Assembly: GCA_003645455.1 (NCBI GenBank)
Contig: QNFE01000011.1
Location: 1 to 45,273, forward strand
Direction of reading: 5' to 3'
Source of the DNA: Gammaproteobacteria bacterium
GTDB lineage: Bacteria > Pseudomonadota > Gammaproteobacteria > QNFE01
DNA length: 45,273 bases
Shown here one piece after another: positions 534-34,730 of the stretch. The stretch's first letter is position 1. Every line of letters begins with the position of its first letter. Both the position numbers and the translations under genes were made by a program. Below the pieces are notes generated by a model, which made no database searches, was not told where the DNA came from, and saw nothing but the letters and a program-made list of their open reading frames with translations.

Positions 534-2126
534 TCATTTTATAGGTTTTAGTATGTCTAATTTTGGCTGGTATATTTTGGTTTGCATCTCATAGGCTCCG
601 ATTATGGTATGAAAAATATTTTGATGTGAGTGGGATTTTTTTTGCACTATTGATTTTATATTTTTTTTGTTTTTAAATTTGGTGGATAACCAGATCATAA
701 ATGGTATTTTGGTTTGGTAATCAGGGGCTATGGAGTAAGGGGTGCCGTGAAGATATAAACCATATTCCCCCAGAGATTCGCCATGATCTGAGGCATAGAT
801 TAACATTGATGGGATGTTATTTAAGTCTTTGAGTTTATTTATTGTTTTGTTGATAAAATAATCGGTATAAAAAATTGTATTATCATAGGCATTTATAAGC
901 TCTTCATTACTGCATTTACTTAATTCTACTGATTTGCAAACCGGAATGTATTTTTCAAATTCTGGTGGATATTGAGTATTATAGGACGGTCCGTGAGAGC
1001 CTTTGGTATGCAAAACTACAAATATTTTTTGTTTTTTTGATGATAAAATTCTATTTTTTAAACCTGTTAATAATACTTCATCATAATCACAGCCTGATTG
1101 TTTTTGTTGCTTGCATTGTTTTTCTAAGGTGTTATTCCTCTGGTATGTCTGCACTTTTAATTCAGGTTCTCCCCAGTTTTTGGTTCGCCATATGGTATCT
1201 GCTCCTTGTCTTTGCAGATAACTTGGTAGGTTTTCATATAAAGTTGTAAGAGATGAATCGTTGTTGTGGGATAACATACAGGCAATTGATTTGGTAGTAT
1301 AGGTAGAACAGGAGGTAGAATTTTTTAAAACTGTTATATTTGTTTTGGATAGTTTTGGATTAGTCTGTCTTTTATAACCATACAAAGAAAAATTATGTGC
1401 TCGTGCTGTCTCGCCGATAATCAAAACAACTAACATTTTTTCATCATCGGCAAATTTACCATCTGGCAATAAAGTCTGTTGTTTTGATTTTGATAGATAA
1501 TTTGCTCCATTGGCAATTGAATTTACGATATATGACCATGGCATCATTTTACCACCGAGTATTTTTGAGTTTTTATCAAACCATAACCAAGTATTAGCAA
1601 ATAAATATATCCACCCTAAACTTATGACGATTATAATCAAACCATAAAATGAGAGTTTTAATCTTTTGGTGTTTTGAATTTTTATTTTTAAAATTAGCAG
1701 AGACGGAATTATACCAAAAATTAAAATATAACTTAGAATTTTAAAATGAAAAAGATCTGTCGCCTCTGCCATGTCCGTATTAAAAACATTCCCCATCATC
1801 GTTTTGTCTAATATTATCTGGTAGGTATCAACAAAATATAAAGCAATGGAAGACAAAATCGCCGATATTATGCAAAAAGGTTTGATAAGATATGAGGATA
1901 TATTAAATAAAATTATTAGTATTATGGAGGTAAACATAAACATCACAACCAACATGGTTAAAAATGTTTGCACTCCATTGATGGAAAAAATATCAAGATT
2001 ATCAACAGCAAAAGAATATAACGGAATATGATATATCAACATATTCGCCAAAGTAATTATAATGACAAATTTTGCAGAGCTTATGTTCCATGTTAAATTA
2101 GTAAAATATTTTATGATTTTTTGCAT
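534..2126 (-). CDS. eptA: EptA-like phosphoethanolamine transferase
   Basis: Members of this sulfatase-fold family move phosphoethanolamine from phosphatidylethanolamine onto lipid A or other envelope sugars on the periplasmic face. The 530 residues start with about five membrane segments (roughly 20-35, 52-75, 82-102, 130-150, 160-180). The periplasmic domain follows, with metal/catalytic motifs IGETARAHNFSLYGY (Glu239), SCSTYTTKS (probable nucleophile Thr275), HTKGSHGP (about 375-382), SDHGESLGEYG (Asp449, His450) and LHGTPYS (His462). Length is normal for the family. The ATG overlaps the stop of the PAP2 gene upstream (TAATG), implying coupled translation. A lipid A target is inferred from lptF, lptG and the PAP2 gene next door. 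Other acceptors (core sugar, as for CptA/EptB) are possible. Confidence 0.88.
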   Translation of the reverse strand: MQKIIKYFTNLTWNISSAKFVIIITLANMLIYHIPLYSFAVDNLDIFSINGVQTFLTMLVVMFMFTSIILIILFNISSYLIKPFCIISAILSSIALYFVDTYQIILDKTMMGNVFNTDMAEATDLFHFKILSYILIFGIIPSLLILKIKIQNTKRLKLSFYGLIIIVISLGWIYLFANTWLWFDKNSKILGGKMMPWSYIVNSIANGANYLSKSKQQTLLPDGKFADDEKMLVVLIIGETARAHNFSLYGYKRQTNPKLSKTNITVLKNSTSCSTYTTKSIACMLSHNNDSSLTTLYENLPSYLQRQGADTIWRTKNWGEPELKVQTYQRNNTLEKQCKQQKQSGCDYDEVLLTGLKNRILSSKKQKIFVVLHTKGSHGPSYNTQYPPEFEKYIPVCKSVELSKCSNEELINAYDNTIFYTDYFINKTINKLKDLNNIPSMLIYASDHGESLGEYGLYLHGTPYSIAPDYQTKIPFMIWLSTKFKNKKNIKSIVQKKSHSHQNIFHTIIGAYEMQTKIYQPKLDILKPIK

Positions 2127-3012
2127 TATTTTTTTATTTGTTGATAAAAATTATTTAAAATAAGATAACAAGATACCATTGTTCCCATAACCATTGCTGA
2201 ATAAATTATCAACAAACCATCGTCCGTAGGGGTTATAAGATCTCTTAAATAAATGCTTAACAATAAAAGAATTATAGCAAAAAATAACTTACCGGAGGAT
2301 TTATCATTTTCTAACCAGCCCCACCATTTTTTATAATGAAGAACAAGATAAGCACCACTTATGCCACCGACAAAGCCAAATACCGCACCCAATAAAATAT
2401 CCAAAGGCCAGTGAGCTCCCACAGCAATCCTGGACGAGGATAAAAATACAGCTATTATAAAAGCGATTAAAATTGATATTTTATATTTTTTGCATATGTG
2501 TTTGTGTTGAGTAAGAGTTGGGGGGGGGGGGTAAAAATTATTGTTATGGCAGTTATGGCGGCAAAAATTGTAATCGCATGTCCTGATGGCAAACTGGTAT
2601 CGGTTGTAATAGCATAACCTATAATATTAAATGAGTCATTATCCAAAACCGCAGCAGGGCGAGGGATAGCAAATAAAATTTTACCTGTAATTGACAAAAT
2701 TGAGGCCAGAGGAATTGTCGCAACAATTGCAGCCCAAGCTTGGGTTCGCCATATAATTAAAAATGATAATAACAACAACAAAACTGCCCCATCGCCTAGA
2801 TGAGTTAAATTAGCCCAAAAATCAATAGATAAAATTGCAAAAAAATCATTTAATTGCAAAAACCAACCCTCTTGCATTGCCACATAAGAATTCTCCCAAC
2901 CATTAAAAGAAATAGCCACAAAAAAGAATAACAAAACAATTAAAATAGGAACGAACATCAAAACCAATAGTTGTTTTTTGCTCCAAATATGATTTTTATT
3001 TTCAACATTCAT
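2126..3012 (-). CDS. PAP2-family phosphatase, out of frame at a poly-C tract (possible phase-variable LpxE-like enzyme)
   Basis: The first part (3012 down to 2467, 181 codons) has several membrane segments and the acid-phosphatase motifs KILFAIPRP (Lys111-Pro119) and LPSGHA (142-145). It then reads into a run of C, changes frame and stops. The third motif, SSSRIAVGAHWPLD, lies in another frame that is open from the tract to the stop at 2126. Adding one C (13) or removing two (10) would join them into a roughly 295-residue protein with all three PAP2 motifs. These enzymes remove phosphate from lipid A, undecaprenyl pyrophosphate or phosphatidylglycerophosphate. Placement 3 bp after lptG and overlapping eptA suggests a lipid A substrate, as in the LpxE-EptA pair of Helicobacter pylori. 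A sequencing error in the homopolymer is the main alternative. Confidence 0.8.
2520..2531 (-). repeat. Poly-C tract of 12 inside the PAP2 gene
   Basis: The plus strand has twelve consecutive G (twelve C in the coding direction), the longest G/C run I noticed in this AT-rich window. It sits within codons that read ACC CCC CCC CCC CAA. The frame before the tract and the frame carrying the final PAP2 motif match only if the tract is 10 or 13 long. Such runs change length by slipped-strand mispairing, so this is a candidate on/off switch. Confidence 0.85.
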
Positions 3013-3015
3013 AAT

Positions 3016-4074
3016 CTAACTATTAAAAACATATTTTTTATTGCCGATGAAGGCGGCGGTGGCAAATAGCATTATTGGAATAACGACACTTATCAATGGC
3101 ATTATGCCATATAACAAACCCAAATTACTAATAAGATAGGATAACATTGAGTAGGAGATTCCTATAATTGAGCCTATGACTATCCTTATCCCGGCATTGG
3201 ATGCTCTTTGCATTCCAAAGATAAAGGGTAGGGCTAAGGCTTGCATGATAAAAAGAGCAAGAGGGCTGAATATTTTTTGCCATAAGGCAAGTTGATAAGG
3301 TTCATATTTTAATTTATTTGTTTTAAGATAATTTATATAAGTTAATAATTTGCCAATTGATAGGCTATCGGCTTTTAATATTAAAACCTCAAAGATATTT
3401 GTTTTCAATAGATCGCTCATTTTTAATGTTTTTTTAAATTCTTTTTTAATTGCTTGTTGTTGATAGGTAAGAATTTTAACATCTTGTAAAACCCATTCAT
3501 TTTTACTGATTTCATAGGCTGTTTTTGCCGTGTATTCGCGGCTTATTTGTTGGTTATTTTTCTCATAAATTTTAATATCCTTAATTGATTTATCAGGGTT
3601 TACCTTACCAATTTTTATTATTAAATTTTTATTTTTAAGCCATAAACCTTCTTTTATCTGAGTCAGTTGCCTGGGGTTTTTTATCTGCATAGCTTTTTGT
3701 TCGGATAGAGGAATTATAAACTCTCCCATGCTCAATAAAGCTGCCATCAATACTAATCCTACCGCAAAAACATTAAGGCTAATTTGAGCGATTGAATAAC
3801 CTGATGCTCGCAGCACGGATAATTCATTATTAGAGGCAAGGGAGCCTAATGAGGTAAGGGTGCCGATTAAAACTGCCATAGGAGCGATATCTGCCATTCT
3901 TTTGGGGGTTGTGTAGAGGATAAACAGCAAAACATCAGCCCAACCATAATCTGGTTTTAGTTTATCAGATTCACTTATGAGTGTCATCAAAGCAAACAAA
4001 AAAGATAGAATTACCAGCACAAATAATATGTTGATAGATATTGTTTTGAATAAATAACGATTAACTATGTTCAC
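3016..4074 (-). CDS. lptG: LPS export permease LptG
   Basis: LptG is one of two inner-membrane permease subunits of the LptB2FGC transporter, which extracts lipopolysaccharide and feeds it to the periplasmic bridge. The protein (352 residues) has the YjgP/YjgQ layout: N-terminal membrane segments with the LptG-typical opening IVNRYLFKTI, a periplasmic beta-rich middle from about 130 to 255, and more membrane segments at the end. The start is GTG at 4072-4074, which overlaps the TAG stop of lptF by one base. Its own stop is 3 bp before the PAP2 start. Order and spacing with lptF are standard for the family, so identity is firm. Confidence 0.93.
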   Translation of the reverse strand: MNIVNRYLFKTISINILFVLVILSFLFALMTLISESDKLKPDYGWADVLLFILYTTPKRMADIAPMAVLIGTLTSLGSLASNNELSVLRASGYSIAQISLNVFAVGLVLMAALLSMGEFIIPLSEQKAMQIKNPRQLTQIKEGLWLKNKNLIIKIGKVNPDKSIKDIKIYEKNNQQISREYTAKTAYEISKNEWVLQDVKILTYQQQAIKKEFKKTLKMSDLLKTNIFEVLILKADSLSIGKLLTYINYLKTNKLKYEPYQLALWQKIFSPLALFIMQALALPFIFGMQRASNAGIRIVIGSIIGISYSMLSYLISNLGLLYGIMPLISVVIPIMLFATAAFIGNKKYVFNS

Positions 4075-5186
4075 TATTTTTTACCTGCCTCCACCTTGTT
4101 CTTTTTTGTGTTTATGGCTTTACCATATTGTTTTTTTATTAACATATAAACTACCAACAAAGCCAAAAGATGAGTCCACCACATTCCTATATATCCTGGA
4201 ATTGTGCCGTCCATAATCCATCTTTTAGAAAAAATCAAAATATTTGAATATCCTATATAGGTTACCAATGCAACCATAAGTCTACCAAATTTGCCTGCTC
4301 GAGGGTTGCTATATGATAAAGGCACAGCAAGCGCTACGAGCAAAATTGTCGCAAGTGGCATTGAGATTCTCCATTGCAGCTCGCCGATATGTCGCGGATT
4401 AACTGATTTGAATAAATCCATAGTCGGGATAGATGCAAGAGTTGTTTTTTCTGTTGTTTTTTCTGTGCCAAATTTTGTGCCGTGTTCGGCAAATTCGGTA
4501 ATAGTTATCCTATCATTTTGTTTGTTAATTATATTGCCATTTTTAAAAATAAAATAATTTTCATCATATTTTTTTATATTTTCAATTGTGGCAGTTTTAG
4601 CATTTTCAATTGTTGTTATATTTTTATTATCGTTAAATAAAAAAATATTTTCTTGATGAGTTTTGTCAGCACTTAGTTTCTGGGTAAACATAACTGCTTT
4701 ATTGTTGTTTGCCATATTAAATTTACCAGATTCAATTTGATAAATTTGGGATTGGCGTTTCATTTTATTTTGCATTTCTAAGTCCACAGCAGCGGCGATA
4801 GGTGAGATATAGAGGGTAAATAAAAACATCACCGAGGCTATCACAGTAGCAAAAATAAGAGAGATTTTTAATGTTTGTAATGGAGTCCACCCACAAGCTG
4901 CCATAACTGCCATCTCTGAATCTTTATATAGTCTACCAAGCCCTATGATGACCCCAAGATATAAACCAAGCGGCAGTAAAGTCACACTAAACCTGACAAT
5001 TTGAGCGATAAACATCGGCAATAATGCATCCAAAGGCAATAACCCCTCCATTATATCCTCTAAGATTAAAATTAAGATATTTGCGAGGAATATCATCAAA
5101 AGGATGAGGGTTGTGCCAAGCCACGCACCCATTATCTCTTTGAAAATATAGCGCTCTAAAATGTTTAGTTTTAATATTTTTATCAT
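4074..5186 (-). CDS. lptF: LPS export permease LptF
   Basis: LptF pairs with LptG in the LPS exporter. The start LNILERYIFKEIMGAW followed by three membrane segments is typical, with a periplasmic jellyroll-like middle (about 140-260) and a membrane C-terminus containing the conserved ELQWRISMPLATILLVALAV segment and SNPRAGKFGRL loop. Length (370 residues) fits the family. The ATG at 5186 gives a short extra MIKILK before LNILERYIF. It lies 6 bp after trkH, and the stop overlaps the GTG start of lptG. In many relatives lptF is divergent from pepA, whereas here it is downstream of the potassium genes. Confidence 0.93.
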   Translation of the reverse strand: MIKILKLNILERYIFKEIMGAWLGTTLILLMIFLANILILILEDIMEGLLPLDALLPMFIAQIVRFSVTLLPLGLYLGVIIGLGRLYKDSEMAVMAACGWTPLQTLKISLIFATVIASVMFLFTLYISPIAAAVDLEMQNKMKRQSQIYQIESGKFNMANNNKAVMFTQKLSADKTHQENIFLFNDNKNITTIENAKTATIENIKKYDENYFIFKNGNIINKQNDRITITEFAEHGTKFGTEKTTEKTTLASIPTMDLFKSVNPRHIGELQWRISMPLATILLVALAVPLSYSNPRAGKFGRLMVALVTYIGYSNILIFSKRWIMDGTIPGYIGMWWTHLLALLVVYMLIKKQYGKAINTKKNKVEAGKK

Positions 5187-6641: not shown

Positions 6642-8984
6642 TTATAAATTCGTTGAATAAGCAAGAGATTTTATATAGTTTTTCATAAATTGCCAATCTG
6701 GTTTGCCGTTTTTATCTATTGGCAATAAGATCGTTTCAGATTCTAATCTTTTTAATCTAACCTGTCTCCCGTAGTTGTATCTAATTGAAATTTGTTGCAA
6801 TAGGGTAGCGACAAAAATATGGATATATTTATTGTCGTGTTTTAAAAATTTTAGATTCATTGTTAGTGTGTGCACATTATCATCACTATAGTATTTGTAT
6901 CCGTGATAAAAAACATTTGACAGCATATCTATTGTAATTTTGTTTGAAAATATTTTTTTGTTATCTTTAAATGTTTCATGATCAATTAAAGCTGATATGC
7001 CATTATTTAGCGAAGATGAGGTTATAAGTGGCACTTGTCCTTTTGTTCTGGTATTTTTATTTAACCTCTCGCCCTTTTCTATTTTAAAAATTCCATCTTT
7101 GCCGCTTAAATTAAAATATTTGAATTCTTGATTTATGAGTTGTGTTTTATTTTTAATTTTTGATTCTATTTTGATTGTGTCGATTTTTTTTAATAAGAAT
7201 AAATTACCAATATAATTGAATAAGAAATTTTTAAAATCTTGTTTTTTTGTTTTTAGATAGTTAATTTTTATATATCTCTCTGCTATCCATTCGTCTTTAT
7301 GGCTTACTATGTGTTTTATGCTATGCCCTACATATTCATCTTTGTTTTTATAATTGGTTAAATATTTTTTACTAATTATGTCCCAGTTATTGTTGCTATC
7401 TGATCTTCCTAGGTGTTTTGTTTTAGTGAAACCGTCATCGTTCCAGATTGCAAAGTATGTTTTATAGTTATTTTGGTGTTTTTCATGGGCTTTTAAGACG
7501 ATAATGCAGGTTGAAACCGCAACTTTTGAATTGTAAAATAATTCAGATGGCATCGAAAATACTGCATCTAATGTATGATTTTTTAATATTTTTTCTTTAA
7601 AACTTAATATCAATCCATTGTTTGCTATCAAGCAACTCGTTGGAATGATTGCCACCAAATAGCTCCCTTTTTGCAAAAAATTGGCATTGTTTAAAATAAA
7701 TTGAAACTCTTCTGTGTCAGTTGATTTTACTTTATAAGGTGGATTTAAAAAACCAACATTAGGTTTGTATTTTTTTATTTGCTCTATTATTTTTTCATCA
7801 AAACAACTACCTTTTATTAAATTTGAGCGACCATCACCGTGAATATACATATTAGAGCAGGTCAGAGAAAAAATGCTATGTTGCAACTCAACCCCTATGA
7901 TTTGTTGTGATTTAATCTCAAGTTCTTTTTGTTTGTCGCCTGCGGCATCTATTATCATTTTTTTCATCGCCGAGATTAAAAACCCACCAGTGCCGGTGCA
8001 AGTATCAAGCACTATGCTGTCTTTATTTATATTGGCAATTTCACAAAATAAATCTGTTATGTGTGGTGGAGTTAAAACTATTCCTAAGCCCTTATCATTA
8101 TTGGCATATCTTAAAAATTCAATATAAAACTGCCCTAAAGTATCAAAATATTTATAGGTTTTGATGAAGTTATTTATTTTTTCATCCACCTCGACGATAA
8201 CATCTCTTAGTTTATTTTCTTGTTTGGCTAGAATCGTATGAGTTTTGATAAAGTTATAACTTGTCACAATATCTTTTATATGTTCGTTTTGTCCTGCAAT
8301 CAATTTATTTTTAATTGTGTTAATAAGATTTTCTGATAACTCCTGTGGACTTTGATATTTATAAGAATTATAAAAAGCCTTATCATGTAAAGCAATCAAA
8401 GTGCCACTTATCAACAAACTGCGGTCAGATTCTGGTACTTTTAAGGTATGCAAGTTATCATTTAGGGTTTTTGAGTATTTTAATAGTTGTTGAAAATCTT
8501 GGTTAAATTTTCTCTCATCCGTCTCATAACCATTTAAATAATCTGCTAGATTTAAAAAAATATCATCTTTAAAGATTGGGTGATATTTATCTGTGCCTTT
8601 TAATTGTAAAAAATGTGAGATTTTTAAATTATTTTTGCTCTGTCCACTTATGGCAATTGACAAAACATCATATTCTTTTGCCAAAAAAGATGAATAAAGC
8701 AAAACCCCATCAACGGCATAATCTTTATGTTTGTTTTGGTACTCTGATTTATGGAATTTTATATCTGCTTTGCATTCAACAACAATTATAAAATCTGGAT
8801 TGTTTTTGTATTGAATAATAAATTCAGGATAACCTTTGCCGATGCCACTTTTTGATGAATTTTTTAGTAGTTTATCAATTTTTGGACTGGCTGATTTTTG
8901 TTTCTCTATGATGATATTTTTATAATCCTCATCATTGCGAACAAAGTCTCTTAAAATATTTTCTGTCAATCTCTCGTTTGCCAT
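6642..8984 (-). CDS. Single-chain restriction-modification enzyme (nuclease + N6-adenine methylase + specificity domain, type IIG-like)
   Basis: Three parts are visible in 780 residues. Residues about 50-75 (GYPEF, then NPDFIIVVECKAD: Asp64, Glu70, Lys72) form a PD-(D/E)xK nuclease signature. Residues about 285-540 are an HsdM-like N6-adenine methylase, with SAM-binding VLDTCTGTGGF (Asp328) and catalytic NPPY (415-418). From about 600 to the end is a HsdS-like target recognition region (GERLNKNTRTKGQVPLITSS; RQVRLKRLESETILLPI). This is the layout of type IIG enzymes, which cut and methylate with one polypeptide. It sits 6 bp after trkA and 3 bp before trkH, in the same direction. I see no good ribosome site before its ATG, so translation may depend on trkA. 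All catalytic motifs look intact; the recognition site cannot be read from sequence. Confidence 0.85.
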   Translation of the reverse strand: MANERLTENILRDFVRNDEDYKNIIIEKQKSASPKIDKLLKNSSKSGIGKGYPEFIIQYKNNPDFIIVVECKADIKFHKSEYQNKHKDYAVDGVLLYSSFLAKEYDVLSIAISGQSKNNLKISHFLQLKGTDKYHPIFKDDIFLNLADYLNGYETDERKFNQDFQQLLKYSKTLNDNLHTLKVPESDRSLLISGTLIALHDKAFYNSYKYQSPQELSENLINTIKNKLIAGQNEHIKDIVTSYNFIKTHTILAKQENKLRDVIVEVDEKINNFIKTYKYFDTLGQFYIEFLRYANNDKGLGIVLTPPHITDLFCEIANINKDSIVLDTCTGTGGFLISAMKKMIIDAAGDKQKELEIKSQQIIGVELQHSIFSLTCSNMYIHGDGRSNLIKGSCFDEKIIEQIKKYKPNVGFLNPPYKVKSTDTEEFQFILNNANFLQKGSYLVAIIPTSCLIANNGLILSFKEKILKNHTLDAVFSMPSELFYNSKVAVSTCIIVLKAHEKHQNNYKTYFAIWNDDGFTKTKHLGRSDSNNNWDIISKKYLTNYKNKDEYVGHSIKHIVSHKDEWIAERYIKINYLKTKKQDFKNFLFNYIGNLFLLKKIDTIKIESKIKNKTQLINQEFKYFNLSGKDGIFKIEKGERLNKNTRTKGQVPLITSSSLNNGISALIDHETFKDNKKIFSNKITIDMLSNVFYHGYKYYSDDNVHTLTMNLKFLKHDNKYIHIFVATLLQQISIRYNYGRQVRLKRLESETILLPIDKNGKPDWQFMKNYIKSLAYSTNL

Positions 8985-28469: not shown

Positions 28470-28586
28470 GAGACTTTTGTATAAATAGAGACCTTTGCAT
28501 AATTCAAGCACAATTTTCTGCATTCTCTAAACAGCACTTGAATTATGCAAAGGTCTCAAATAAAATGTTATTTATACAAAAATCTC
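28470..28586. repeat. Family A element inserted into an older copy of itself
   Basis: The inner copy (28488-28557, 70 bp) has perfect GAGACCTTTGCATAATTCAA arms and a 5-bp AAATA duplication on both sides. Outside it, GAGACTTTTGTATAAAT (28470-28486) pairs with ATTTATACAAAAATCTC (28570-28586), one mismatch, and looks like a diverged version of the same ends. The element lies between divergent trhP and mod. Confidence 0.8.
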
Positions 28587-28696: not shown

Positions 28697-30517
28697 ATGC
28701 CCCAATCATTCAAAAAATCATCAAAGGATATATTCAAAGATGAGTTAGCAAAATTCGCCCAAATCTTTCCGCAATTTATCAAAGATGACAAAATTGACTT
28801 TAAGTCATTTAAGCAATTTTTAAAAAAGAAAAATCTCAAAGATAATAAAAATAACGGTTTTGGTTTTAGATTCGCCGGCAAATCCCGGTCATTCAACCAC
28901 ATAAAAAAACAAAACACAGATACATTAAACCCACAAAAAGAAAATTCTGTTAATTTTGACAAATCAGAGAATTTGTTTATTGAAGGTGATAATCTGGATG
29001 TTTTGAAACTTTTGCAAAAATACTACCACAATAAAATCAAAATGATCTATATTGACCCACCCTATAATACTGGCAAAGATTTTATTTATAAAGACAATTA
29101 CACAGACAACAAAAGCGATTATTTGGAGAAAATAGGGGCAAGCAAAGATGGCATAAAATTAGAAACCAACGCTAACTCAAACGGCAGATACCACTCCGAC
29201 TGGCTCTCTATGATTTATCCGCGATTATTTCTTGCCCGCCAACTTTTAAAAGATGATGGAGTAATTTTCATAAGCATCGATGATAACGAACAACACCATC
29301 TGCGAATGTTGATGAATGAGGTTTTTGGTGAGGTTAATTTTGTTGCAAATGTTGTTTGGAAAAGAAAAAGAGGCAGAGATAATTCAGCAAGATGGTTTAG
29401 TAAATCCCATGAGTATTTAATTACTTTTGCTAAAAATAAAGATTTATTTGAGGTTAATTATTTAGAGTTAGATGAGACAACAAAAAAAGCATATAAAAAT
29501 CCAGATAAAGACAAAAGAGGAAATTATCGCATGCTTGCTACATGGGCAAGAGGAACGCAAGGCGGTGTAAAATACGATTTTACAGATAAAAATAATCAGT
29601 ATTTTAAAACAAGATTATGGTTGATGAGTAAAAAAAACCTAACAAAATTAGACAATGAAGATAAATTGATAATTCGTGGAGACAATATTTATAGAAAACT
29701 ATTTTTAACGGAAAACAAAGGCAAAATTCCAGAGACAATATGGCAAGATGTATCAAATGCTGCTAATGCTTCGGATGAGATAAAAAGTATTTTTTCAAAT
29801 ATAATTTTTGATACTGCAAAACCAATTCCATATATTCAAGAAGCCATTAAGGTAGCCACCAACAAAAACGATATTATCTTAGATTTTTTTGCAGGTTCGG
29901 CGACAACTGGACAGGCTGTTATGGATTTAAATCAAAGCGATGACGGGACGCGAAAATTTATCCTCGTGCAAATCCCAGAGACGACAGATGAAAAATCAGT
30001 AGCCTATCAAGCAGGTTATAAAAATATCGCCCAAATCGGCATAGATAGATTAAAAAAAGCCATAAAAAAGCATGACTATAAAGACGGATTTAAAGTCTTC
30101 GCCCAAGCCGACACCAATTTTAACCTGCCACCAAACACGAACAAAACACCGCAAAAAATCTTAAATTATAACACCCTGAAAACAAATATAAAAATAGAAA
30201 ATCTGTTATATGAAATAATCCTCAAACAAGGTTTGTCGCTCCACTCAACTATTGTTAAAAACTCGCTCTTGCAACAATCATCAAATAAAGAAGTTTTGAC
30301 AAGGGGGCATGCCCCCTTGTTAGAAAATGATATATGGCAAATCACCGACAAGCAAGCGGAGAGAACAATCTATTTTACCCTAAGCGATAAATTAGACAAT
30401 GCAACCATAAAAAACCTTAAAGTCCAAAACGGCGACACCCTCATCTGCCGTGACCAAGCATTAAACGACACTCAAAAAACGAATCTTACCAAAAATATAA
30501 AATTATTAACTTTCTAA
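28697..30517 (+). CDS. mod: Type III DNA methyltransferase Mod
   Basis: Mod is the modification and recognition subunit of a type III restriction system and makes N6-methyladenine at an asymmetric site. The 606 residues have the beta-class order: catalytic DPPYNTG (Asp120 onward), a recognition region in the middle (about 220-380), then SAM-binding ILDFFAGSATTGQ (Asp396, Gly400). The N-terminus FIEGDNLDVLKLL and the DYLEKIGAS...HSDWLSMIYPRL block are typical. Residues 535-542 (TRGHAPLL) are encoded by a palindrome related to the repeats nearby. The partner res is 1.6 kb downstream; usually the two genes are adjacent. Confidence 0.93.
   Translation: MPQSFKKSSKDIFKDELAKFAQIFPQFIKDDKIDFKSFKQFLKKKNLKDNKNNGFGFRFAGKSRSFNHIKKQNTDTLNPQKENSVNFDKSENLFIEGDNLDVLKLLQKYYHNKIKMIYIDPPYNTGKDFIYKDNYTDNKSDYLEKIGASKDGIKLETNANSNGRYHSDWLSMIYPRLFLARQLLKDDGVIFISIDDNEQHHLRMLMNEVFGEVNFVANVVWKRKRGRDNSARWFSKSHEYLITFAKNKDLFEVNYLELDETTKKAYKNPDKDKRGNYRMLATWARGTQGGVKYDFTDKNNQYFKTRLWLMSKKNLTKLDNEDKLIIRGDNIYRKLFLTENKGKIPETIWQDVSNAANASDEIKSIFSNIIFDTAKPIPYIQEAIKVATNKNDIILDFFAGSATTGQAVMDLNQSDDGTRKFILVQIPETTDEKSVAYQAGYKNIAQIGIDRLKKAIKKHDYKDGFKVFAQADTNFNLPPNTNKTPQKILNYNTLKTNIKIENLLYEIILKQGLSLHSTIVKNSLLQQSSNKEVLTRGHAPLLENDIWQITDKQAERTIYFTLSDKLDNATIKNLKVQNGDTLICRDQALNDTQKTNLTKNIKLLTF
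30298..30321. repeat. Palindrome within the mod reading frame (family B-like core)
   Basis: ACAAGGGGGCA and its reverse complement make a 22-bp perfect palindrome. It resembles the core of the 77-bp repeats (AACAAGGGGACA arms), with GGCATGCC at the centre in place of GACATGTC, and is followed by TTAGAA as in those repeats. It adds roughly eight residues without breaking the frame. Confidence 0.75.
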
Positions 30518-30530
30518 GAGAAAATAAAAT

Positions 30531-31361
30531 ATGAACACAACAATGGCAATCGCATACGATTTTGATGGAACTTTGGCTCATGGCAATATGCAAGAACATT
30601 CATTTATTCCCCAATTAGAAATAGATAAAGATGAATTTTGGAAAGAAGTTAATGTAATAGCAAAAGACAATGACATGGATCAAATTTTAGCATATATGTA
30701 TTTAATGCTTGACAAAGCAACAAAAAAGAAAGTAAGAGTAAAAAAAGAAGATTTTAATATGCATGGCAGAGATGTAGAATTCTTTGATGGAGTTGAAAAA
30801 TGGTTTGATAATATAAATGAATATGCAAAAAACAAACAGATAAATATTGAGCATTATGTTATATCGTCTGGATTAAGAGAGATGATAGAAGGAACAAGCA
30901 TTTATAAAAAATTTGAACATGTTTTTGCATCAGGTTATAAATATGATCATCATGGAATAGCCGAATACCCTGCTTTGGCAATCAACTACACCACAAAAAC
31001 ACAATATTTATTTAGGATAAACAAAGGCATAAAAAATTCATGGGAAAACTCTAAAATTAATGAATATATACCAGACAACAAAAGAGCAATACCATTCAAA
31101 CACATGATTTACATAGGTGATGGTGACACAGATATACCAGCTATGAAAATGGTAAACTATCAAGGAGGAAAATCAATTGCAGTTTATAAAAAAAATGCCA
31201 AGAAAAAATACACCCATAAAGCAGCAAAGAAATTAGTAGAGGAAGGTAGGGCAACAATTTGTGCCGAAGCAAATTATTTGCCAAATAGTGATCTAGACAA
31301 ATCCGTTAAAGGCATGATTGATCAAATTACTGTTGATATAATGCTTAATAAAATGAAATAA
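30531..31361 (+). CDS. HAD-family hydrolase
   Basis: The 276-residue protein has the HAD phosphatase motifs DFDGTLA (nucleophile Asp10, acid Asp12), VISSGLREMIEG (motif II Ser) and GDGDTDIPAMK (motif IV, Mg binding). A cap region separates motifs I and II. The substrate is unknown. It starts 13 bp after mod and is transcribed the same way, so it probably shares the mod promoter. Similar HAD genes occur in phage and defence regions. Its place between mod and the toxin-antitoxin pair makes a defence role or a passenger gene equally possible. Confidence 0.8.
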   Translation: MNTTMAIAYDFDGTLAHGNMQEHSFIPQLEIDKDEFWKEVNVIAKDNDMDQILAYMYLMLDKATKKKVRVKKEDFNMHGRDVEFFDGVEKWFDNINEYAKNKQINIEHYVISSGLREMIEGTSIYKKFEHVFASGYKYDHHGIAEYPALAINYTTKTQYLFRINKGIKNSWENSKINEYIPDNKRAIPFKHMIYIGDGDTDIPAMKMVNYQGGKSIAVYKKNAKKKYTHKAAKKLVEEGRATICAEANYLPNSDLDKSVKGMIDQITVDIMLNKMK

Positions 31362-31393
31362 AATAAAATAATTACTCACAAAAAAGAGAAAAC

Positions 31394-31422
31394 TTGACAT
31401 TGTCATCCAAATGGGATACAAT
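31394..31422 (+). promoter_or_regulatory. Promoter with overlapping operator-like palindrome for the toxin-antitoxin pair
   Basis: TTGACA (31394-31399), 17 bases, TACAAT (31417-31422) is close to consensus, 26 bases before the antitoxin ATG. TGACATTGTCA (31395-31405) is a perfect inverted repeat over the -35, a likely binding site for the RelB-type antitoxin, whose family represses its own operon. Confidence 0.75.
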
Positions 31423-31448
31423 AAAATTTTTTACATTCTTTTAGAATT

Positions 31449-31724
31449 ATGATTCATAATAAAACAGACAAAATAAGTGCCAGAATACAGCCTAATATAA
31501 AAAAAAGAGGCAATGCTATTTTATCTTCAATTGGCATTAAACCATCAGATGCTATAACTTTATTTTATCATCAGATTATAATTCATCGCGGATTGCCGTT
31601 TGAGGCAAGGCTTCCTAATGATGAAACGATTGAAGCTATCAATGAATTAAAAGATCCGAACAAAAGAGCGAGGTTAAAAAAATATGATAATGTTGAACAA
31701 CTAATGGCAGATTTAGATTCGTAA
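31449..31724 (+). CDS. RelB/DinJ-family antitoxin
   Basis: The 91-residue protein starts with a ribbon-helix-helix DNA-binding part (DKISARIQPNIKKRGNAILS, then IGIKPSDAITLFYHQIIIHR) followed by GLPFEARLPNDETIEAINEL and a C-terminal toxin-binding helix, the DinJ pattern. It ends 6 bp before the toxin gene. It has its own promoter and probable operator and so is expected to be controlled independently of mod. Name DinJ rather than RelB is suggested by the YafQ-type partner. Confidence 0.9.
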   Translation: MIHNKTDKISARIQPNIKKRGNAILSSIGIKPSDAITLFYHQIIIHRGLPFEARLPNDETIEAINELKDPNKRARLKKYDNVEQLMADLDS

Positions 31725-31730
31725 GCATCA

Positions 31731-31997
31731 ATGAAAAAAATCATAAAATCTGTTAAGTTTAAAAAAGATTATAGGAGAATGATAAAAAGAGGAGTTGATA
31801 AAAACAAACTAATAGTTATTTTGTTAATGTTGTCCCAAGATGAAAAATTGCCAGATAAAAACAGAGACCATAAACTAATAGGCGATTATGCAGGTTTTTA
31901 TGAGTGCCACATTGAACCTGACTGGTTGCTAATTTATGACATTAAAGACGACGAGATAGGTTTGGTGAGGACTGGCACACATTCGGACTTATTTTAA
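31731..31997 (+). CDS. YafQ-family toxin (RelE superfamily mRNA interferase)
   Basis: YafQ toxins cut mRNA in the ribosomal A site. The 88 residues include FKKDYRRMIKRG, the conserved DHKLIGDYAGFYECHIEPDW and LLIY, and the C-terminal VRTGTHSDLF with the catalytic His near the end (YafQ His87 equivalent), so the toxin looks intact. It follows its antitoxin by 6 bp. A 77-bp repeat starts 6 bp after the stop and may end transcription before res. Confidence 0.92.
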   Translation: MKKIIKSVKFKKDYRRMIKRGVDKNKLIVILLMLSQDEKLPDKNRDHKLIGDYAGFYECHIEPDWLLIYDIKDDEIGLVRTGTHSDLF

Positions 31998-32003
31998 TGA
32001 GGC

Positions 32004-32080
32004 TCTGAATAGCTCCCAACAGCGACCACGAGATGCAGTTATGACAAGGGGACATGTCCCCTTGTTGGTAGTTGATCAGA
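32004..32080 (+). repeat. 77-bp palindrome-bearing repeat, family B diverged copy
   Basis: Same length and layout as the copies at 12420 and 34762: TCTGA and TCAGA ends and the core ACAAGGGGACA with its reverse complement. The left half is diverged while the core and ATGCAGTTAT are kept. It lies between yafQ and res. The core hairpin could act on the transcript. Confidence 0.75.
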
Positions 32081-32135
32081 GGAAGCCCAAAAACTGAACT
32101 TCAAAGTTTTTGAGGTTAATTTTATGATGTAAAAA

Positions 32136-34730
32136 ATGAAAATCCAATACGAATTATTAGACTATCAAACCGAGGCGGTGGACTCCGTCATAGATTTGTT
32201 GAATTTTGGCAGTGAATTTTATCGGACAAATAATGATAAAGGTTTTTTAAATGTCTCGGTGGTTGGCAATGAATTTGAGATTGATAAAAAATTATTACAG
32301 CAAAATTTGGGCAAAATTCAAACTTTAAATTCCATTGAAAATAATCAGTCTAAAATTATTGATGATAATCTGGCAGATTTTTCAGTTGAGATGGAAACAG
32401 GAACTGGCAAGACTTTTGTGTATTTAAAAACTATTTTCCAATTATATAAAAATTATGATTTGAAAAAATTTATTATCATTGTGCCATCGGTGGCAATTCG
32501 TGAGGGAGTGTTAAAAACTCTTCAATGCTCGGTTGATTATTTTTATAAAAATTATCAGACTCGGGCGGATTATATGGCATATGAGGGGCAAAGCAATCGT
32601 AAGATATCTACCCTAAATACCTTTGTCAATAACAATAATTTGAGTATTTTGTTGATGAGTATTCAAGCCTTTAACTCTGATAACAATATCATCAATGAAG
32701 CACGAGATGATGCTATGGGGCAAAAAATGATTGATATTATTGCCACCACAAAACCTGTTTTGGTTTTGGATGAACCGCAAAACATGGAATCAGATTTATC
32801 AAAATCTGCCATTGGTAAACTAAATCCCTTAATAAAACTTCGCTATTCTGCCACCCATAAAAATTATTATAATTTGTTATATAGATTGTCCGCTTTTGAT
32901 GCTTATAACAAAGGTTTGGTTAAAAAAATTGAAATTGCCTCGGTAGTGGTTGATGACCCTAACTCTTTTATTTTTGAGCCTTTGAAAATTATTTTAAAAA
33001 AAGGAGCAAGTCCGCAAGTTGCCATAAAAGTTGAGATAAAAAATAACCAAGACGAATATCAATTTAAAACATTAAATTTTAAACTATCGGAGAATATTTT
33101 TTTAAAAACCAATAATTTGAAATATAAAGATTTACGCATTAATGAAATATCAACGGCAAAAAATGGGGCAGGTTTGAGTGATGGCAGGTTTTTTGTTATC
33201 GGCAAAAATGATGATTTGTTAAAAGAGGATATTTTTCGCACCCAGATAAGAGAGACTATCAATAATCATTTTATCAAACAGCAACAAGTTGGCAAAAATA
33301 TCAAAGTTTTGTCATTGTTTTTTATTGACAGGGTTAAAAACTATGTGCCAGATAATGGTTTTATCAAAACAATTTTTAATGAGGAGTTTGATGAGTTAAA
33401 AAAGCAGTTCCCATTTTTTAAAAACAAAAAATCAGATGAAGTGCAAAATGGTTATTTTTCAAAATCTGGTAATTTATACAAAGATACTCGTGGTGATAGT
33501 CAAGCGGATAAAAAAACCTATGATTTGATAATGAAAGATAAGTTTAGGTTGCTGTCGTTTGATGAGCCAACTTGTTTTATATTCTCCCACTCGGCTTTAA
33601 AAGAAGGCTGGGATAACCCTAATGTTTTTAATATCTGCACTTTAAATGAAACCAAATCAATAATGAAAAAACGCCAAGAAATTGGGCGAGGAATGCGCTT
33701 GTGTTTGGATATAACAGGCAAGCGAGTTTATGATAGCAACACCAACAAACTAATTGTTGTGCCAAATGAATCATATCAAGATTATGTTGCCACTTTGCAA
33801 AGTGAATTTAAAACAAGCGGACAAAAGGGCTTTACACCTGCGGACAGAAACAAAAGAGTCGTGGTAAAATTTAAAAAACAATTTGCCACAGATAATAAAA
33901 GTTTTAAAATTCTATGGCAAAAAATTAGCCAAAAGACTCGTTATAATATTAAAATCAATAGCGAGGAGTTTATAAAAAATACCATCAAAGCCATCAATGA
34001 TAGGTTGTCGGTAGGCGAGAGCATGATTAAAATTCAAAGGCAAGATTTAAGTTTTTCCGATAAAAATATCATAAGTTCGTTTTATAATAGCGAGCAACTC
34101 GGGGCTGTTATCAACACAAAAAACCAAACCCATGATATTGTCAAAGAGATTGGCAGCATCACTAATTTAACATATAAAACCATAACAACTATTTTGCAAG
34201 GCATTGAAAATTTTGCCATGTTTGATAAAAATCCTGCGGGTTTTACCAGGAGTGTAATTGTCATTTTCAAACAAGAGTTGCGAGCTGTTATTGTCAATGG
34301 CATTGAGTATTTTAAAATAGATCAAAGTTATAAAATGGAGTTATTTAAAGATATTGAAACTTACCAAAACAAAACAATTGCCTCACAAAAATCAATTTAT
34401 GATAAGAGTATTTTTGATAGTGCAGGTGAGATGGAGTTTGCAAAAAATTTGGATAAAAATGACAATGTCCGATTATTTGCTAAATTACCTAATTGGTTTG
34501 TAGTGGATACCCCCGTAGGAGATTATAATCCTGATTGGGCGATTGTTTGGCAAGAGCAAACACAAAAAGAGAAATTATATTTGGTGCGTGAGAGTAAATT
34601 TGTTGATGATTTGATGAATTTAAGAACCCATGAGAGTGATAAAATAATATGTGCCAAAGAGCATTTTGAGGCAATTGATGTTGATTTTAAAACTTGTCAA
34701 GACCAAAATTTAAATGATTTATTTGGTTGA
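32136..34730 (+). CDS. res: Type III restriction enzyme subunit Res
   Basis: Res translocates or switches along DNA using ATP and cuts when complexed with Mod. The 864 residues begin with the helicase core: ETGTGKTFVYLKT (Walker A, about 87-98), IIVPSVAIREG, DEPQ (about 211-214, in place of DEAH), FSHSALKEGWDNPNVFNICT and QEIGRGMRLC. The C-terminal endonuclease part holds NPDWAIVW and LYLVRESKF (about 798-822), the PD-ExK site. All motifs appear intact. It is 55 bp beyond the diverged 77-bp repeat; no clear promoter was found there, so expression may depend on readthrough. Confidence 0.93.
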   Translation: MKIQYELLDYQTEAVDSVIDLLNFGSEFYRTNNDKGFLNVSVVGNEFEIDKKLLQQNLGKIQTLNSIENNQSKIIDDNLADFSVEMETGTGKTFVYLKTIFQLYKNYDLKKFIIIVPSVAIREGVLKTLQCSVDYFYKNYQTRADYMAYEGQSNRKISTLNTFVNNNNLSILLMSIQAFNSDNNIINEARDDAMGQKMIDIIATTKPVLVLDEPQNMESDLSKSAIGKLNPLIKLRYSATHKNYYNLLYRLSAFDAYNKGLVKKIEIASVVVDDPNSFIFEPLKIILKKGASPQVAIKVEIKNNQDEYQFKTLNFKLSENIFLKTNNLKYKDLRINEISTAKNGAGLSDGRFFVIGKNDDLLKEDIFRTQIRETINNHFIKQQQVGKNIKVLSLFFIDRVKNYVPDNGFIKTIFNEEFDELKKQFPFFKNKKSDEVQNGYFSKSGNLYKDTRGDSQADKKTYDLIMKDKFRLLSFDEPTCFIFSHSALKEGWDNPNVFNICTLNETKSIMKKRQEIGRGMRLCLDITGKRVYDSNTNKLIVVPNESYQDYVATLQSEFKTSGQKGFTPADRNKRVVVKFKKQFATDNKSFKILWQKISQKTRYNIKINSEEFIKNTIKAINDRLSVGESMIKIQRQDLSFSDKNIISSFYNSEQLGAVINTKNQTHDIVKEIGSITNLTYKTITTILQGIENFAMFDKNPAGFTRSVIVIFKQELRAVIVNGIEYFKIDQSYKMELFKDIETYQNKTIASQKSIYDKSIFDSAGEMEFAKNLDKNDNVRLFAKLPNWFVVDTPVGDYNPDWAIVWQEQTQKEKLYLVRESKFVDDLMNLRTHESDKIICAKEHFEAIDVDFKTCQDQNLNDLFG

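Follow-up and report, generated by a model that had tools for sequence, protein, structure and literature searches.

A PAP2 phosphatase gene lying directly upstream of an intact eptA is divided between two reading frames at a run of 12 C, and we favor, at a little better than even confidence, the interpretation that the two genes form a phase-variable lpxE-eptA operon that was assembled in its OFF state. The DNA analyzed (hereafter, the window) comprises positions 1 to 45,273 of contig QNFE01000011.1 of Gammaproteobacteria bacterium, from one assembly (GCA_003645455.1). When relatives were sought at the levels of genus, family, and GTDB order, this genome was the only one to turn up. A tract of this length, a downstream frame that is preserved, and poly-C tracts at surface genes across the genome are all in keeping with a contingency locus. 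Two features expected of a contingency gene are found here: a long homopolymer within the reading frame, far above chance, and a switch between full product and early stop that would follow from a change in its length, with the two halves of the gene otherwise intact. We infer the length switching, the 1-phosphatase activity, and the phenotype discussed below from sequence and from comparison with known systems.

Gene order in the window

The genes of interest are as follows (window coordinates):

4074-5186, minus strand: lptF, LPS export permease (TIGR04407, 293 bits, cut-off 230)
3016-4074, minus strand: lptG, LPS export permease (TIGR04408, 303 bits, cut-off 240)
2126-3012, minus strand: PAP2 phosphatase gene, whole (probably LpxE-like)
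2467-3012, minus strand: 5' part of the PAP2 gene (frame A), 181 aa (Pfam PAP2 positions 4-73, E 2.9e-6)
2520-2531, minus strand: poly-C tract of 12 C, the proposed slippage site
2126-2519, minus strand: 3' part of the PAP2 gene, in the other frame (Pfam PAP2 positions 77-119, E 6.8e-9)
534-2126, minus strand: eptA, lipid A phosphoethanolamine transferase, intact, 530 aa (NF007160; EptA_B_N and Sulfatase domains)

lptG ends three bases before the PAP2 ATG, and the eptA ATG shares one base with the PAP2 stop (TAATG). These junctions bear out the close placement after lptG and before eptA that was described as coupling in the preliminary description of this DNA, including its claim that the eptA start overlaps the PAP2 stop.

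Several other features of the window are recorded here in their own right. At the contig start (5-420, plus strand) is a fragment of an rpoD-like sigma factor gene, in which one frame holds region 1.2 and the beginning of the non-essential region, another holds an end resembling region 4.2, and the middle is missing; this is either a degenerate second copy or an assembly chimera. A dispersed repeat (GAGACCTTTGCA) occurs eight times without mismatch in the window, compared with 0.15 expected when up to one mismatch is allowed, at sites that include 423-492 and 28488-28557, and also 12133, 12287, 40698, and 44671. Two pairs of copies form 70-base inverted-repeat elements, and the repeat resembles a family of small mobile elements. 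Between trkA and trkH, a gene for a 780-aa fused N6-methyltransferase and type I specificity-domain protein (6642-8984, minus strand) interrupts what is otherwise a potassium-uptake gene pair. A type III restriction-modification-like set (28697-34730, plus strand) encodes a DNA methylase, a HAD-type hydrolase, two small ORFs, and a Res-like endonuclease; no long repeat tract was found in its methylase gene.

The C12 tract and similar tracts across the genome

The tract appears as 12 G at positions 2520-2531 of the plus strand, and thus as C12 in the PAP2 coding strand. The longest other run of C or G in the window is at most six bases. Four nine-base matches are seen in the window, compared with 0.04 expected based on dinucleotide shuffling, and for runs of at least 12 bases the genome-wide expectation from base composition is 0.0012. 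Chance does not account for runs of C9 or longer.

All three PAP2 motifs (KxxxxxxRP, PSGH, and SRxxxxxHxxxD) are present, in two frames that lie on either side of the tract. Frame A (2467-3012, minus strand, 181 aa) carries KILFAIPRP and LPSGH, corresponding to the first two motifs, and frame B (stop to stop 2126-2626, minus strand, 166 aa) carries SRIAVGAHWPLD, corresponding to the third. Frame A ends at a stop 340 bases before eptA, so its product is without motif 3. Because the motif 3 histidine is catalytic in PAP2 chemistry, this early product of 181 aa should be inactive. Frame B alone scores above the Pfam PAP2 gathering score, and the two frames cover profile positions 4-73 and then 77-119, almost without a gap, so the domain is cut at the tract. 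BLAST searches show both frames matching the same intact homologs in order, at residues 58-179 (54% identity) and then 204-290 (40%) of one homolog (L070), and at residues 61-179 (48%) and then 186-250 (42%) of another (L071); overall, the identity of the 3' part to intact homologs reaches 56%. Given the other window genes as a codon-usage reference, the only frame of the coding strand with a positive score is frame A upstream of the tract (0.31) and frame B downstream from it (0.14). The motifs, the Pfam halves, and the BLAST matches thus bear out the original observation that the PAP2 motifs are split between frames at a 12-C run. It also holds that 10 or 13 C would restore the frame; the restored protein, put at 295 residues in that description, would have 294 or 295 depending on the tract length.

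The tract encodes prolines in a short basic loop that connects two helices, one starting at PSGH and the other ending at SR, and this loop is probably cytoplasmic. The spacing between motifs 2 and 3 is exactly 40 residues in seven of the eight eptA-linked relatives listed (the exception, L010, has 32), versus 47-48 residues in the joined window protein, as counted from the translations. The tract therefore lies in an insertion within a loop that tolerates one.

A broken frame could also mean that the phosphatase was lost from this lineage by a frameshift at the run and is now decaying. The gene can be absent, given that one of the two genomes in the order of G056 (a relative described below) is without a match to the PAP2 query. 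However, no second lesion was found in the PAP2 gene: frame B remains open as far as the stop/start overlap with eptA, which is conserved, and it keeps motif 3 and its coding bias. It is also about as similar to the relatives as is the first half of the gene, and the eptA downstream is intact. We consider pseudogene formation improbable. More improbable still is an explanation that involves no DNA switching at all, in which RNA polymerase or ribosome slippage at C12 yields some full-length protein. Long homopolymers can cause transcript heterogeneity, and the intact second half would be in keeping with mixed transcripts of this kind, but the other in-frame tracts and those in upstream regions would be left unexplained.

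Those other tracts belong to a genome of 2.06 Mb (98% complete; GC content about 33% in the window). A 16S search of its assembly gave no SSU match. There are 16 C or G runs of at least nine bases, compared with 0.28 expected from composition, and six of at least 12 bases. Among 184 sampled genomes of the class, only seven have more C10 matches, although some of the counts come from contig ends. An in-frame G10 occurs in an MBOAT acyltransferase gene, and another near the end of a methyltransferase gene in a sugar/glycosyltransferase-type cluster (neighbors named from sequence by eye). A G9 run splits a Methyltransf_23 gene between two frames (L067, G000:C53, 3750-4430) just upstream of glycosyltransferase-like and ABC export genes (also named by eye), making this gene a second candidate for an OFF phase-variable gene. 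A C10 run (L058, G000:C8, 3883-3965) lies 73 bases upstream of the gene for a 1079-aa CotH/Ig-like surface protein, where it is a possible promoter-spacing switch. Less telling are a G9 run inside a FabG-like gene and some other tracts whose placement is doubtful or that lie at the end of a contig. The set of tracts at surface-glycan and adhesin-like genes looks like the pattern of a genome with contingency loci; this does not in itself imply that the PAP2 tract varies.

C or G runs of 15-17 bases lie at contig ends or no more than about 75 bases from them (L061 and L066 on G000:C26 and C50, L064 on C34, and L068 on C59). Two of these contig-end runs lie where the sequence of a large Ig-like or FG-GAP repeat protein begins, and contig C26 ends, and contig C34 begins, inside a long run. 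Such assembly breaks fit either length heterogeneity or read artifacts. The two-color poly-G read artifact was considered for the contig-end tracts, and does not fit the internal, flanked PAP2 run.

It is important to consider that the assembled tract length may be wrong, in which case the gene would be intact and the true tract in frame, whether or not its length also varies biologically. Base calling and consensus are known to be error-prone at homopolymers of 12 bases, the placement of several long tracts at contig ends (e.g., C26 and C34) indicates that assembly at such runs was difficult, and three other coding tracts are in frame. On the other hand, the PAP2 run is internal and well flanked, the methyltransferase gene on C53 is split in like manner, and a coding run of C10-C13 in a genome with 33% GC would be the usual substrate for phase variation anyway. 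We regard a miscount as unlikely, although it carries appreciable weight, and it would mainly alter the assembled state rather than the mechanism because the long C run stays in the gene.

Identity of the phosphatase and its linkage to eptA

A profile of the intact eptA-linked relatives has as its best match of solved structure the LpxE of Aquifex aeolicus (PDB 6ebu, E 4e-23), followed by PgpB (E 5e-12). Among NCBIfam models, the intact relatives match SepP (undecaprenyl-diphosphatase), PgpB, and YbjG-type models, all far below cut-off, and no LpxE-named model was matched. An AlphaFold model of an eptA-linked relative matches the fold of PgpB first and of LpxE second, about equally, and its confidence (mean pLDDT 59) is too low to discriminate between the two. 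Fold alone does not fix substrate, so the tract could switch some other PAP2 phosphatase (an LpxF-like 4'-phosphatase, PgpB, or a C55-PP phosphatase), with a different change in lipid. The weak SepP and PgpB model matches, and the PgpB-first result for the low-confidence structure model, point in that direction. Against this, the profile score is clearly best for LpxE, the gene is linked to eptA, and in Capnocytophaga this same gene pair includes a proven LpxE (PMC4730577); we thus think it unlikely that the enzyme is of another kind. As judged from sequence, which is compatible with action at either the 1 or the 4' position, the PAP2 gene is probably LpxE-like, and its product would remove the lipid A 1-phosphate. 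The nearest structure, the linkage to eptA, and the EptA subtype all support the earlier assignment as a lipid A phosphatase of this type.

No PAP2 gene other than that in the window was found in the 98%-complete genome; LpxK and BacA are both present. With no other PAP2 protein found, nothing obvious could stand in at the lipid A step. Loss of the phosphatase should nevertheless be tolerated, and its contribution to C55-PP recycling dispensable, if BacA does that job. A role as the sole C55-PP phosphatase, for which the OFF state would be lethal, was rejected because BacA is present.

The EptA protein has full-length domains and scores 640.7 bits against NF007160 (cut-off 561), which we take to be the Helicobacter-type EptA model, versus 371.6 against the E. 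coli EptA model; scores against the MCR models are likewise much lower. Linkage of the two genes is conserved. In two genomes of the same class (G056, locus L070, and G272, locus L071), an intact PAP2 homolog is directly upstream of eptA, in the same order and orientation, with an ATGA overlap in the first and TAA abutting ATG in the second. In G056, lptG and lptF are about 3 kb from the pair. The longest homopolymer in these intact homologs is six bases. At five loci from Burkholderiales or related bacteria, a PAP2 homolog adjoins eptA in convergent orientation.

The overlap or abutment of stop and start in the window and in the two relatives makes translational coupling of the PAP2 gene and eptA plausible. 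The window eptA has no clear Shine-Dalgarno site, which is a weak point for coupling because most window genes are also without one. Given the profile match, the linkage to eptA, the EptA subtype, and the known order in which LpxE acts before EptA, the window operon most resembles lpxE-eptA.

The proposed switch and known systems

In the mechanism that we propose, slipped-strand mispairing at C12 would shift the reading frame, so that one length class in three would give the full phosphatase (ON) and the other two, including the assembled one, would end translation early (OFF). The 181-aa protein made in the assembled state would lack the motif 3 catalytic histidine. In ON cells, a periplasm-facing LpxE-like PAP2 phosphatase would cleave off the lipid A 1-phosphate, after which EptA would transfer phosphoethanolamine to the vacated position, making lipid A less negative and the cells more resistant to cationic peptides. 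In OFF cells, lipid A would keep the phosphate and EptA would be without substrate, if it needs the dephosphorylated form. Loss of translational coupling across TAATG could also lower the amount of EptA in the OFF state.

Precedents for the order of the two steps come from Capnocytophaga canimorsus, in which a proven LpxE is encoded in an lpxE-eptA operon with a 20-bp overlap, EptA works on the product of the preceding LpxE step, and deletion of lpxE blocks the EptA step and increases polymyxin sensitivity (PMC4730577). In Helicobacter, for which the joint action of LpxE and EptA on lipid A was pointed out when this locus was first described, the order is the same (PMC10525099), and mutation of lpxE in H. 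pylori raises polymyxin B sensitivity 16-fold (PMC3245313). Because EptA needs the LpxE product in these systems, one tract could control both steps even in cells that translate eptA, and this substrate gating would be a simpler route than translational coupling. More tentatively, and short of even confidence, we suggest that a poly-C switch in a gatekeeping 1-phosphatase gates the two-enzyme modification as a unit, aided by coupling, in a lineage with its own contingency set.

If the proposal is true, one slip-prone tract would change both surface charge and endotoxin structure via the first step of a sequential pathway, and the second enzyme need not switch separately. The list of known phase-variable lipid A enzymes would then include the phosphatase, differences in peptide resistance among the cells of one clone could be explained, and attention would be drawn to a little-studied lineage that has many poly-C contingency loci. 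In the open-access literature, we found no report of a phase-variable LpxE, LpxF, or PAP2 phosphatase. Phase-variable transfer of phosphoethanolamine to lipid A is already known, from Neisseria (see below), and a switch on the phosphatase appears to be new.

The window protein shares the PAP2 fold and the three motifs with its best profile match, Aquifex aeolicus LpxE, but it is longer (with extra N- and C-terminal regions) and split, and its eptA-linked subgroup has a longer spacing between motifs 2 and 3, of about 40 residues or more. In mcr-1 and mcr-2 with flanking pap2 (PMC10525099), a phosphatase gene also adjoins a phosphoethanolamine transferase gene; however, the MCR models give the window EptA far lower scores than NF007160 does, and the window pair follows lptF-lptG. 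The C. canimorsus lpxE-eptA (PMC4730577) and H. pylori Hp0021-Hp0022 pairs have the PAP2 gene followed by the EptA gene, as in the window, and carry out the two-step 1-dephosphorylation and phosphoethanolamine addition that we propose for the window pair. A homopolymer switch is not described for either pair in the papers cited, whereas the window phosphatase gene is split at C12, and is placed after lptG. The closest parallel to the switch itself is Neisseria eptA/lptA, in which an in-frame homopolymer stochastically sets the phosphoethanolamine content of lipid A and hence resistance to cationic peptides (PMC10525099). There, the switch is in the transferase; in the window, the tract is in the upstream phosphatase, which would supply the substrate of the transferase.
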